Shown piece by piece: positions 57,295 through 61,051 of a stretch of 64,000 bases of DNA; positions within the stretch are counted from its first letter, which is position 1; each line of letters opens with the position of its first letter. Under the pieces are notes generated by a model. That model saw only the letters and a program-made list of their open reading frames with translations. It did no database searches and was not told the DNA's origin. The stretch is taken from positions 1,458,288-1,522,287 of the forward strand of contig NZ_JHZF01000011.1 of assembly GCF_000688295.1 (NCBI RefSeq), given 5' to 3'. A program made the position numbers and the translations under genes. Source of the stretch: Pseudooceanicola nanhaiensis DSM 18065. GTDB taxonomy: Bacteria > Pseudomonadota > Alphaproteobacteria > Rhodobacterales > Rhodobacteraceae.

Positions 57295-58923
57295 TCAGGC
57301 GGTCCGCCGCGCCGCGCCCGTCTCGCGCAGGAGCTTCCAGCGGATCGCATCCGTCAGCGCCTCGAAGCTCGCGTCCACGATGTTGGGCGAGACCCCGACG
57401 GTCGACCAGCGCCGCCCCGAGGCGTCCTCGCTGTCGATGATGACCCGGGTCACCGCCTCGGTCCCGCCCTGGGTGATCCGCACCTTGAAGTCGACGAGGT
57501 GCATGTCCTCGATCGCCTCCTGCAGCGGGCCGAGGTCCTTGGCCAGCGCCTTGGCCAGCGCGTTCACCGGACCGCGGTCCGACCCGTCCGCATCGACGCT
57601 TTCCGAGACCGACATCCGCCGCTCGCCGTCCACCTCGATCACCACCACCGCCTCGGAGAGCGAGATCCGCTTGCCCGCCGCGTTGCGCCGCCGCTCGATC
57701 GTCACCCGGTAGCGCTCGACCTCGAAGAAGCGCGGCATCACGCCCAGCTCCTCCCGGGCGAGCAGCTCGAAGGAGGCCTGCGCGCTGTCGTAGGTGTAGC
57801 CGCGGTCCTCGCGCTCCTTCACCTCGGCCAGCATCCGGCCGAGCGCGGGATCGCCCTTCTCGACCTCGATCCCCGCCTCCGCCAGCCGCCGCCGCAGGTT
57901 CGACTGCCCGGCCTGGTTCGACATCGGGATCACCCGCTCGTTCCCGACCAGGGCCGGGTCGACATGCTCGTAGGTCTCCGGCGCCTTCAGGATCGCGGAG
58001 GCATGCAGCCCCGCCTTGTGCGCGAAGGCCGAGGCCCCGACGAAGGGCGCCTGCTTGGTCGGCACGCGGTTCAGGATGTCGTCGAGCTGGCGCGAGATCG
58101 TGGTGAGCTCGCGCAGCGCCGCGTGGCTGACGCCGGTCTCGTAGAGGCTCGCATAGGGCTCCTTCAGCAAGAGCGTCGGGATCAGCGTGACGAGGTTGGC
58201 ATTGCCGCAGCGTTCCCCGAGGCCGTTCAGCGTTCCCTGGATCTGCCGCGCCCCCGCATCGACCGCCGCCAGGGAGCCCGCGACCGCGTTGGCCGTGTCG
58301 TTATGCGTGTGGATGCCCAGCCGGTAGCCCGGGATCCCGGCCGCGATCACCTCCGCCACGATCCGCCCGATCTCCACCGGCAGCGTGCCGCCGTTGGTGT
58401 CGCAGAGCACGACCCAGCGGGCCCCGGCCTCATGCGCCGCCCGGATGCAGTCCAGCGCGTAGTCCCGGTTCGCCTTCCAGCCGTCGAAGAAATGCTCCGC
58501 GTCGAACAGCGCCTCGCGGCCCTGCGCCACGAGGTGCGCGATGCTCTCGCGGATATTGGCGACATTCTCGTCGAGCGTGATCTCCAGCGCCTTCTCGACG
58601 TGGAAATCGTGGGTCTTGCCGACGATGCAGACGGCCGGCGTGTTCGCGTTCAGCACCGCCGCCAGCACGTCGTCATTCTCGGCCGAGCGGCCTGCCCGCT
58701 TGGTCATGCCGAAGGCCGCCAGCGTGGCCTTCAGCTCCGGCGCCTGTTCGAAGAAGGCGCTGTCGGTGGGGTTCGCGCCGGGCCAGCCGCCCTCCACGTA
58801 GTCGACGCCGAGCCGGTCGAGCGCCGCCGCGATCCGGAACTTCTCGGGCGTGGAGAAGGAGACCCCCTGGGTCTGCTGCCCGTCCCGCAGCGTGGTGTCG
58901 TAGAGATAGAGGCGTTCCGTCAT
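57295..58923 (-). CDS. cimA: (R)-citramalate synthase
   Basis: Condenses pyruvate and acetyl-CoA to citramalate, the threonine-independent entry to isoleucine synthesis. 542 aa. The HMG-lyase-like barrel starts LYDTTLRDGQQTQGVSFSTP (Arg-Asp of the active site), with HTHNDTANAVAG metal-binding histidines and GNANLVTLIPTL. A C-terminal LeuA dimer domain covers about residues 400-535. Homocitrate and isopropylmalate synthases share the fold, but this arrangement and length fit CimA. It lies downstream of cysS in the same direction. Confidence 0.92.
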   Translation of the reverse strand: MTERLYLYDTTLRDGQQTQGVSFSTPEKFRIAAALDRLGVDYVEGGWPGANPTDSAFFEQAPELKATLAAFGMTKRAGRSAENDDVLAAVLNANTPAVCIVGKTHDFHVEKALEITLDENVANIRESIAHLVAQGREALFDAEHFFDGWKANRDYALDCIRAAHEAGARWVVLCDTNGGTLPVEIGRIVAEVIAAGIPGYRLGIHTHNDTANAVAGSLAAVDAGARQIQGTLNGLGERCGNANLVTLIPTLLLKEPYASLYETGVSHAALRELTTISRQLDDILNRVPTKQAPFVGASAFAHKAGLHASAILKAPETYEHVDPALVGNERVIPMSNQAGQSNLRRRLAEAGIEVEKGDPALGRMLAEVKEREDRGYTYDSAQASFELLAREELGVMPRFFEVERYRVTIERRRNAAGKRISLSEAVVVIEVDGERRMSVSESVDADGSDRGPVNALAKALAKDLGPLQEAIEDMHLVDFKVRITQGGTEAVTRVIIDSEDASGRRWSTVGVSPNIVDASFEALTDAIRWKLLRETGAARRTA

Positions 58924-59030
58924 GCGACCTGCTCCCGATCCGATACGCGGCACGCGGGGCGCGGGTCCACGCGCCATTCACTGTCCTGCCGACCTCCCGT
59001 GAGGAAATCGCGCCCGGCTTGAGCCGCACC

Positions 59031-59131: not shown

Positions 59132-60502
59132 TCATTCCGACACCCCCTCCAGCTTCGCCGGATCGAAGCCCGGTCCGGGGATCAGTTCCACCCCGGCCTT
59201 GCTCATCCGGACCTCGACCCCGGCGGCAACGAGCGCCGCCTTCATCTCGTCCACGCGGGAGAAATCCTTGGACGCCATCGCCGCCTCGCGCGCCGCCGCC
59301 AACTCGGCCTCCAGCCCCGAGAGATCGACCGCCGGACCCTCGGCCCAGGCCCCGATCTCTTCCGTCAGCAACCCGAGGAACGCCCCCGCCGCCTTGAGCC
59401 CGGCCACGTCGCCTTCGGCCGCCAGCCGGTGCATCTCCGCCACCGCCCCGGCGGTGTTCAGATCGTCGGCCACGGCCGCGAGCACCGCCTCAGGCACTGC
59501 ACCTGCCTCGACACCCGAGACCATCCCGCGCCACTTCCGCAGCACCGCCTCGGCCTCTCCGGCCTTCCTCTCCGTCCAGTCCATCGGCTTGCGGTAATGC
59601 GTGCCGAGGAACACGAAGCGGATCACCTCGCCCGGCACGCCCCGGTCCAGCAGATCCCGCACGGTGAAGAAGTTGCCCAGCGACTTGGACATCTTCTTCC
59701 CCTCGACCTGCAGCATCTCGTTGTGCAGCCAGACCCGCGCGAAGCCCGCCCCCGGCGCCGCGCAGCAGCTCTGCGCGATCTCGTTCTCGTGGTGCGGGAA
59801 CATCAGGTCGTTGCCGCCGCCGTGGATGTCGAAGCTCTCGCCCAGAAGCTCCTTCGCCATGGCCGAGCACTCGATATGCCAGCCCGGGCGCCCCCGGCCC
59901 CAGGGGCTCTCCCAGCCCGGCAGGTCCTCCGTCGAAGGCTTCCACAGGACGAAATCCATCGGATTGCGCTTGTAGGGCGCGACCTCGACCCGGGCGCCTG
60001 CGATCATGTCCTCGACCGAACGGCCCGAGAGCCGGCCGTAGCCCGCATAGCTCTCCACGGCGAAGAGCACGTGCCCCTCCGCCTCGTAGGCATGGCCCGC
60101 CGCCACCAGCCCCTCGATCATCGCGATCATCTGGCCGATGTGCTCCGTCGCCCGGGGCTCGACATCCGGCCGCAGGGTGCCGAGGGCGTCCATGTCCTCG
60201 TGATACCAGCCGATGGTCTCGTCGGTGATGGCGCGGATGTCGCGTCCGTCCCGCGCCGCGCGCGCGTTGATCTTGTCGTCCACGTCGGTGAAATTCCGCA
60301 CGTAGGTCACGTGCTCGGCGCCATGGACATGCCGCAGCAGCCGGTAGAGCACGTCGAAGACCACCACGGGCCGCGCGTTGCCCAGATGCGCCCGGTCATA
60401 GACCGTCGGCCCGCAGACATACATGCGCACGTTCTTCGGATCGATGGGGGTGAACACCTCCTTCGTCCGGGTCAGCGTATTGGTCAGCCTGATCTCGGCC
60501 AT
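59132..60502 (-). CDS. cysS: Cysteinyl-tRNA synthetase
   Basis: Class I synthetase charging tRNA-Cys, 456 aa. The zinc-site Cys lies in [16 protein letters not shown], which also carries the HIGH-type motif [23 protein letters not shown] is the second zinc/active-site block, and the KMSKS loop is [16 protein letters not shown] cysteine- and isoleucine-rich leader ORF precedes it by 80 nt, and cimA follows in the same direction. Confidence 0.97.
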
Positions 60503-60514
60503 GTCGGATCCTCG

Positions 60515-60573
60515 CGCGGTTTCACCGCGGGCCGGTCGACATATCCTGGGAGATTACGAAGGAGACGGCCCGC
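60515..60573 (-). promoter_or_regulatory. Alternative hairpins between the Cys/Ile leader and cysS
   Basis: On the minus strand GCGGGCC-GTC (60573-60564) can pair with GAC-CGGCCCGC (60537-60527). The 3' arm of that stem overlaps a shorter hairpin CGCGGT-GAA-ACCGCG (60529-60515), which sits directly before GAGGA and the cysS ATG. The two are partly exclusive, a layout suited to translation or transcription attenuation. No U-tract is present. Confidence 0.4.
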
Positions 60574-60582
60574 TTGACGATG

Positions 60583-60639
60583 TCAGCAGGTAATGATGCA
60601 GCAGATGATGATGCAGGTCGTCTTCATGCAGGCTGGCAT
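60583..60639 (-). CDS. Candidate Cys/Ile leader peptide for cysS-cimA
   Basis: Minus-strand ORF MPACMKTTCIIICCIITC, or 14 codons from the second ATG at 60627. It holds four Cys and five Ile codons in the last ten codons, ahead of cysS and then cimA (isoleucine synthesis). The second ATG coincides with the transcription start predicted from the promoter at 60663-60635, so the peptide may be leaderless, as with trpL in some alphaproteobacteria. No ribosome site is present, consistent with that. Coding in another frame (His/Leu-rich) or no translation remains possible because the sequence is CAT/CTG-repetitive. Confidence 0.4.
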   Translation of the reverse strand: MPACMKTTCIIICCIITC

Positions 60640-60663
60640 AGACCGAAAGCGCCGCCCTGCCAA
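60635..60663 (-). promoter_or_regulatory. Promoter-like sequence upstream of the leader and cysS
   Basis: On the minus strand TTGGCA (60663-60658) and TATGCC (60640-60635) are 17 nt apart. Transcription would begin near 60628, at or next to the ATG of the 14-codon leader. Confidence 0.45.
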
Positions 60664-60748
60664 GACTTGATTTGACCCTCCGGCAGGCGCAGGATCCGCG
60701 ACAGGCGCGCCGACCCCTCCCGGCGGGGAAAAGGCCCCGCGCCCCTGC

Positions 60749-60801
60749 CTCTTCATCTTTCCGGAAATACTCCGGGGGGTCCGGGGGGCAGCGCCCCCCG
60801 G
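60749..60801. repeat. Extragenic palindromic repeat, copy E (inverted)
   Basis: CTCTTCATCTTTCCGGAAAT, then ACTCCGGGGGG and a 9-bp hairpin CCGGGGGGC/GCCCCCCGG with loop AGC (60781-60801). Same unit as copies A-D, inverted. The remainder of the 549-nt gap 60503-61051 holds the leader region and an unremarkable stretch 60802-61051. Confidence 0.7.
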
Positions 60802-61051
60802 CGGGTCGGGCCGCCGAAGCGATCGCTCGGGGAAACCACCGCCTCGGCACCCGGCCGCCCCGCCTCCCGCAGCATGGCGGCCGGCGCATCCGCATCGCCG
60901 TGACCGTCGGCGATCACCGCGCGCCAATCGGGCAGGGTCACGTCCATGCACATGACGCTTTCCCGCCCCGCCCCCCGGGCCGGCGTTTTTCACTTGCCCG
61001 AGCGCCGACCCGACCGCAGCCTGCAGGGCGACACCCTACGGAGGACTTCCC

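Follow-up and report, generated by a model that had tools for sequence, protein, structure and literature searches.

A putative cysteine- and isoleucine-responsive leader upstream of cysS and cimA in Rhodobacterales and a second, Hyphomicrobiales-like order

In the window, the 64,000-nt stretch of Pseudooceanicola nanhaiensis DSM 18065 DNA that we analysed, a short open reading frame (ORF) crowded with Cys and Ile codons precedes cysS and cimA. We consider it likely that this ORF belongs to a ribosome-mediated attenuator, carried by a leaderless message at the head of the cysS-cimA operon, that takes both cysteine and isoleucine as inputs. What we computed are its conservation, codon composition, promoter geometry, a covarying helix (1:2) and operon linkage, and from these we infer the stalling, the off mechanism and the physiological response. 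The initial annotation of this DNA had proposed amino-acid attenuation with Cys and Ile together; composition, cimA linkage and the covarying hairpin support that proposal, with the regulation itself predicted. Judged by sequence comparison, the leader is conserved in Rhodobacterales and in a second, Hyphomicrobiales-like order, a wider range than reported.

The leader, its genes and its promoter-like boxes

The features of the locus are collected in Table 1. The leader ORF has its ATG at 60627, its last residue codon ending at 60586 and its TGA at 60585-60583, and contains four Cys and five Ile codons, exactly the 14-codon sequence and coordinates that had been annotated. The stop codon lies 80 nt before the cysS start, and cimA lies 3′ of cysS on the same strand. 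The annotated identities of both genes hold, with matches above cut-off to NCBIfam TIGR00435 (423.3 bits, cut-off 340) for cysS and to TIGR00977 (594.6 bits, cut-off 450) for cimA. A search of the window's genome for threonine deaminase returned five matches, none over the cut-off, and an Rfam search at the leader gave no match up to E 5. Upstream of the promoter-like boxes, positions 60767-60824 of the window hold a GC-rich inverted repeat with a sub-threshold Rfam match to Clostridiales-2 (27 bits, gathering 58.6), which is probably a low-complexity hairpin.

Table 1. Features of the leader region and the downstream genes (positions in the window)
Feature	Position	Strand	Basis
−35-like box TTGGCA	60658..60663	−	sequence read; position kept in relatives
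−10-like box TATGCC; predicts a leaderless transcript from or near the leader ATG	60635..60640	−	sequence read
Leader ORF MKTTCIIICCIITC with stop TGA	60583..60627	−	sequence read; conservation in relatives
Region 1 (CCTGCTGAC, last codons and stop), 5′ arm of hairpin 1:2	60582..60590	−	fold energies
Region 2, 3′ arm of hairpin 1:2 (GCGGG shared with 2:3)	60569..60578	−	
5′ arm of hairpin 2:3 (GCGGGCCG)	60566..60573	−	sequence read; arm energies
Pyrimidine-rich tract following 1:2, resembling a weak terminator tail	60548..60565	−	average of 75 leaders
3′ arm of hairpin 2:3 (CGGCCCGC)	60527..60534	−	arm energies
5′ arm of hairpin 3:4 (CGCGGT), overlapping the 3′ arm of 2:3	60524..60529	−	by eye in some relatives
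3′ arm of hairpin 3:4 (ACCGCG), directly 5′ of the cysS ribosome site	60515..60520	−	sequence read
cysS ribosome site GAGGA	60509..60513	−	sequence read
cysS, cysteinyl-tRNA synthetase	59132..60502	−	NCBIfam TIGR00435
cimA, citramalate synthase (isoleucine pathway)	57295..58977	−	NCBIfam TIGR00977

The promoter-like pair that had been noted before the ATG is present exactly as described, in the order TTGGCA, 17 nt, TATGCC, 7 nt, ATG. We compared this geometry across 75 leaders, which represent 74 loci since the window's own leader is counted twice, as L001 and as L227, and of which 74 come from the window's order and one (L085) from Devosia. The best match to the −35 box begins at −35 to −37 relative to the leader ATG in 73 of the 75, and that to the −10 box ends 6-8 nt before the ATG in 71 of the 75, so the spacing is kept; the bare string CTTG occurs at −38 to −36 in 59 of the 75. 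A strict sigma-70 scan of 60480-60760 returned no promoter. The conserved distance between boxes and ATG predicts a leaderless message, with transcription starting at or next to the leader AUG.

A further two-box element, GTTTCC-N16-GCTAAG, lies between the leader stop and cysS in relatives. With boxes that were picked after inspection, it reaches a score of 10 or more out of 12 at 57 of the 73 leader loci versus 3.2% of shuffles, and the window's copy scores 10 with a 15-nt spacer. The element is also found in genomes without the leader, namely G425 (L248), G447, G541 (L275), G544 (L276) and G526. One possibility is a second promoter whose transcripts would avoid the attenuator.

Conservation, codon content and linkage to cimA

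In the same genus, all 22 genomes (L001-L021 and L024, the window included) carry a Cys/Ile-rich ATG ORF 125-159 nt upstream of a cimA-linked cysS. Two loci were set apart in this survey: L022, a fragment whose gene start lies in L024, and L023, a second cysS copy in one genus genome that has no leader. Among the nearest named loci (L031-L054, L059 and L084), the leader is present in 20 of 26, including Roseovarius, Marivivens, Pseudorhodobacter and Sulfitobacter; L034, L039, L045, L049, L050 and L053 failed the leader rule. Two Paracoccus records carry the leader as well. A covariance model (R1), built from 40 leaders with the window's among them, matches 113 of the 150 family genomes, once per genome. 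Thus the ORF and its Cys/Ile content, whose conservation the annotation had proposed as a check, are kept in relatives.

Class-wide, we read the upstream stretches of 100 of the 143 listed cysS genes, comprising 69 of 69 near cimA, 20 of 20 apart from it and 11 of 54 without a listed cimA. An ATG mini-ORF with Cys and Ile that scores at least 3 is present in 13 of these 100 stretches (one of them only 14 bases long), versus one of 990 Markov-shuffled stretches and none of 99 reverse strands, which exceeds what chance would give. The annotation had cautioned that another frame of this repetitive DNA reads as His/Leu. That caution stands as regards the frame itself, which is open in most relatives as well, the +2 frame being interrupted by a stop in just 3 of the 75 leaders, so an open frame alone is no proof of a coding leader.

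In the second order, leaders were found at Rhizobium, Ensifer, Mesorhizobium, Phyllobacterium, Bradyrhizobium, Stappia, Cohaesibacter and Devosia loci, for example MKTVICIICRKIIR and MKTSFAICGICIIG. Their plan is that of the Rhodobacterales leaders, with promoter-like boxes, a short ORF and a hairpin containing the stop codon. Identical leaders in named genomes suggest that this order is Hyphomicrobiales. cimA lies within 3 kb beyond cysS at 7 of the 11 second-order leader loci, the others being L079, L082, L087 and L096. A second model (R2), built from 12 second-order leaders, matches 45 of the 120 second-order genomes, once each and always 14-151 nt before the cysS match; in 44 of the 45, cimA follows cysS on the same strand at a distance of 15-3255 nt. 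In Sinorhizobium meliloti Ak57 the leader is MKTVICIICRNIIR, and cimA is 3′ of cysS after four listed genes. This cimA (L213, 15908-17480) is missing from the listed annotation and its match is split over two reading frames; it may be a broken gene or reflect a sequencing error.

Short ORFs of other kinds also occur before cysS. At L142, L144, L147 and L164, a short ORF with Cys codons and a RITA, RITG or RVIA end (MINRSHRCCCPGGRITA and kin) lies about −112 to −116 before cysS; these ORFs are perhaps a separate Cys leader family. At L187, L192, L197 and L189-L191, where cimA is elsewhere, there are two recurrent short ORFs with one or two Cys, one type ending in RCIEV or RCIEA and the other being MDRSLPICYR.

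The codon content of the leaders is strongly skewed. Ile makes up 32.8% and Cys 24.5% of the 75 leaders, a composition favoured by the choice of 30 of them as the ATG ORF with the top Ile+Cys score near a model match. The same rule, with the same bias, was used for 30 second-order leaders, which contain 29.4% Ile and 11.7% Cys (136 versus 54 codons; 3-7 Ile and 1-4 Cys each). In comparison, Cys accounts for about 1% of cysS (191 of roughly 19,800 codons). Counted back from the stop in 68 distinct tails, Ile or Cys occupies codon −4 in all 68, and codons −5 and −3 in 66 and 64, respectively. Specifically, codon −3 is Ile in 62 tails and codon −5 is Cys in 59. The annotation had also suggested that wobble bases should vary while the Cys and Ile codons are kept. 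A synonymous-change test on the last nine codons is neutral (synonymous fraction 0.319, versus 0.211 for random changes and 0.332 for transitions only), so that the case stands on composition and not on wobble variation.

The order and number of Cys and Ile vary between genera and the composition is kept. This, together with the skewed choice of Ile codons, argues against the peptide itself, as an arrest peptide or a thiol or metal sensor, being the active element in place of the codons. Such a peptide would agree with the Cys-rich content, the conserved position and the length of 13-15 residues in all 43 leaders measured; we hold it to be extremely improbable.

Leader presence tends to follow cimA linkage. 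In 108 of the 113 R1 matches, cimA lies 1357-1960 nt downstream, and R1 is present in 108 of 137 cimA-linked family genomes versus none of the 6 in which cimA is unlinked or lacking (p=1.5e-4). Left out of this comparison were the five matches with an unplaced cimA, namely G500, G531 and G551, whose contigs end in or within 313 nt of cysS, and G511 and G459, in which cimA is on another contig; G466 and G469, with no R1 match and no listed cysS, were left out too. Counting the five unplaced matches as unlinked gives 5 of 11 (p=0.022). In the second order, R2 is present in 44 of 101 linked genomes versus none of the 14 unlinked or lacking cimA (p=6.8e-4), after exclusion of G652, in which the match and cimA are on different contigs, and of four genomes for which no cysS is listed; with G652 as unlinked the count is 1 of 15 (p=0.0043). 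All these Fisher values, like the permutation values below, overstate independence because genomes share ancestry.

Some family leaders were judged by eye; we also give the outcome of an objective leader rule. By this rule, 121 of the 137 linked family genomes (G480 doubtful) have a leader versus 2 of 6 unlinked or lacking cimA (G490 and G493; p=0.0036), or 7 of 11 with the five left-out matches counted as unlinked (p=0.043). Among the 29 family genomes that are linked to cimA and R1-negative, 13 pass and 16 fail the objective rule, and by eye 12 remain without a leader; in the second order, 57 linked genomes have no R2 match. These linked genomes without a model match speak against the link. 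In the class-wide set, the leader rule is passed by 19 of 69 stretches near cimA versus none of the 20 apart from it (p=0.004) and none of the 10 with cimA unlisted. No leader was found in G417, G447, G526 and G445, family genomes in which cimA is missing, located apart or not within reach. G490 has the leader MGTAIRICGICITV and no cimA was found there, but it is ambiguous for linkage, since at this locus (L288) the contig stops 655 nt past cysS and a tandem repeat occupies the whole of that distance. The leader of G418 cannot be judged because its contig begins 89 nt upstream of cysS.

Composition and linkage together bear on the two readings with a single input. In the first, which is the published reading of uORFC-8-2, the leader attenuates cysS in response to Cys alone and the Ile codons are incidental. 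The position of cysS as first gene fits this reading, as do the tandem Cys codons in 58 of the 75 leaders (at positions 7-11 in 57; at 9-10 in the window) and the leader of G493, a genome without cimA, which is MDWICCLCRA with three Cys and one Ile. We nevertheless regard it as highly improbable, given the excess of Ile over Cys in the second-order leaders, the tendency of the leader to track cimA, and the leader of G420, MNAPNRIIGIIIGG, with five Ile, no Cys and a linked cimA. Furthermore, ATT is enriched among leader Ile codons (168 of 316, versus 135 of 814 in cysS).

In the second, the leader is an Ile-only attenuator of cimA, and a ribosome stalled on the Cys codons leaves region 1 uncovered. 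In both orders, most leaders have Ile codons adjoining region 1, which speaks for this reading along with the association with cimA and the Cys-free leader of G420. The abundance of Cys in the leaders of both orders relative to cysS, the predominance of Cys at codon −5 and the three Cys and single Ile retained in G493 speak against it, and we judge it distinctly unlikely.

RNA structure and the proposed switch

Downstream of the leader, the RNA is predicted to form alternative hairpins. The annotation had described two partly exclusive hairpins; both exist (2:3 and 3:4), but a third and best-conserved one, hairpin 1:2, which holds the leader stop codon, had been missed. RNAalifold on alignment A1 returned no structure, as helix registers shift between groups, and we therefore compared the pairing energies of own and foreign arms. 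Hairpin 1:2 folds in 41 of the 41 leaders tested, and its own arms pair more strongly than the non-cognate mean in 40 of the 41, and the observed mean was not reached in any of 5000 permutations. Conserved pairing 3′ of the ORF, the lack of which the annotation had named as refuting its proposal, is thus present in relatives, with covariation. For hairpin 2:3, whose partner segment lies about 40 nt downstream of region 2, own arms are stronger in 30 of the 41 and 15 of 5000 permutations are as low. The permutations ignore the relatedness of the leaders, and L011, L014, L112 and L085, which are near-duplicates or from another order, were left out. Hairpins 1:2 and 2:3 share region 2 and are mutually exclusive, the covariation of 2:3 being the weaker. 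In G493, hairpin 1:2 was not found in its usual form.

The statement that the locus has no U-tract holds in the strict sense: the longest T run is 2-5 in the 75 leaders, and in the window 60480-60760 contains no terminator-like site above threshold. Averaged over the 75 leaders, however, T makes up 47% and pyrimidines 79% of positions +16 to +31 past the stop, versus 16% T at +32 to +70.

The proposed switching follows the logic of the trp attenuator. Transcription would start at or beside the leader AUG, so that ribosomes would initiate on a leaderless message. When Cys-tRNA or Ile-tRNA is scarce, the ribosome would stall on Cys or Ile codons 3 to 9 codons before the stop. A ribosome stalled at the last of these codons would cover region 1 and block hairpin 1:2, leaving region 2 free to pair with region 3, and expression would go on. 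When both tRNAs are charged, the ribosome would complete the leader and hairpin 1:2 would form before the pyrimidine-rich tract, so that expression of both genes would drop, most likely through transcription termination. Stalling on either type of codon would free region 2, and shortage of either amino acid is therefore predicted to raise both cysS and cimA. In many second-order leaders the Cys codons are 5-9 codons away from the stop; a ribosome stalled there would perhaps not extend over region 1, which is a poor fit to simple occlusion. Also against the proposed switch are the lack of a terminator-like site above threshold in the window, the missing region 4 and U-rich tract of Paracoccus, and the small predicted change in SD accessibility described below.

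The off state could instead act on translation, with hairpin 3:4 hiding the cysS ribosome site when the ribosome is at the stop and hairpin 2:3 freeing it. In the window, the arms of 2:3 and 3:4 overlap at 60529-60527 and 3:4 adjoins the SD, as this arrangement would have it. In Paracoccus, however, hairpin 3:4 and its region 4 are absent, as is the U-rich tract, and the leader and hairpin 1:2 are present, so translation attenuation would account for only part of the family. In addition, predicted SD accessibility changes little between a ribosome at the stop and one upstream (mean 0.39 versus 0.44), and the change exceeds 0.1 as expected in 11 of 45 and in the opposite sense in 2 of 45. Translation attenuation is unlikely in our assessment, and we rejected SD sequestration by 3:4 as a general off state given Paracoccus and the near-unchanged accessibility.

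Returning to the attenuator with both inputs, we lean, with some reserve, towards a fuller version of it: a two-input switch that predates the split between Rhodobacterales and Hyphomicrobiales, which couples the supply of two metabolically unrelated amino acids and in which shortage of Cys or Ile raises both enzymes and codon content is tuned to the operon, Cys having been lost where cimA is kept (G420) and Ile being low where cimA is lacking (G493). The pairing may have its reason in physiology, with the supplies of cysteine and isoleucine being truly linked in the cell. If so, an attenuator that reads Cys and Ile jointly would be an unusual pairing and would offer a reason why the linkage of cysS and cimA is kept across two orders. 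It would also recast a published Cys-only candidate and extend it to rhizobia such as Sinorhizobium meliloti, for which tools are available, and the supply link would be directly testable through a few codon changes.

Comparison with known systems

Enterobacterial thr and ilv attenuators sense more than one amino acid, and the pheST attenuator controls a tRNA synthetase. To our knowledge, Cys is not sensed together with Ile in any of these, nor does any of them couple a synthetase to another amino acid's pathway. Mycobacterial attenuators with Cys codons are a further parallel, and their target genes reportedly differ from cysS-cimA.

The Rhodobacterales leader is very probably uORFC-8-2, as compared with the text description of that candidate (Brewer et al. 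2021, PMC8632094). That description gives 145 examples, exclusively upstream of cysS in Rhodobacterales, and proposes a ribosome-mediated Cys attenuator with an AUG uORF and tandem Cys codons, UGC being dominant; our leader shares the AUG uORF, the tandem Cys codons, the downstream gene and the bacterial order. Several described details differ. The tandem Cys codons of uORFC-8-2 are usually at positions 14-15, whereas those of the window are at 9-10 in peptides of 13-15 residues, although the paper's count may start elsewhere. uORFC-8-2 has a 3′ U-run and Cys codons inside stem 1, whereas the leader described here has a pyrimidine-rich tract with no strict U-run and a stem 1 made of the last codons and the stop. 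Unlike uORFC-8-2 as described, the present version extends to a second order. The word isoleucine is absent from the main text of PMC8632094, and the literature searched, which has most subscription journals outside it, gave no further account of this leader and none of an Ile input, a cimA link or a wider range.

Two other leaderless systems are similar in part. Mycobacterial polycysteine short ORFs are described as leaderless, with contiguous Cys codons that attenuate downstream translation (Canestrari et al. 2020, via PMC9031893); like the present leader they are short leaderless ORFs with contiguous Cys codons, and unlike it they are mycobacterial and, in that account, respond to Cys alone. 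The rnTrpL/peTrpL leader of Sinorhizobium meliloti, described as a transcription attenuator of trpE (PMC10117765), shares with the present leader its leaderless message, its 14 codons and its bacterial class, and differs in being a tryptophan attenuator. New relative to these reports are the wider bacterial range and the presence, in one leader, of two amino acids that match both functions of the operon.
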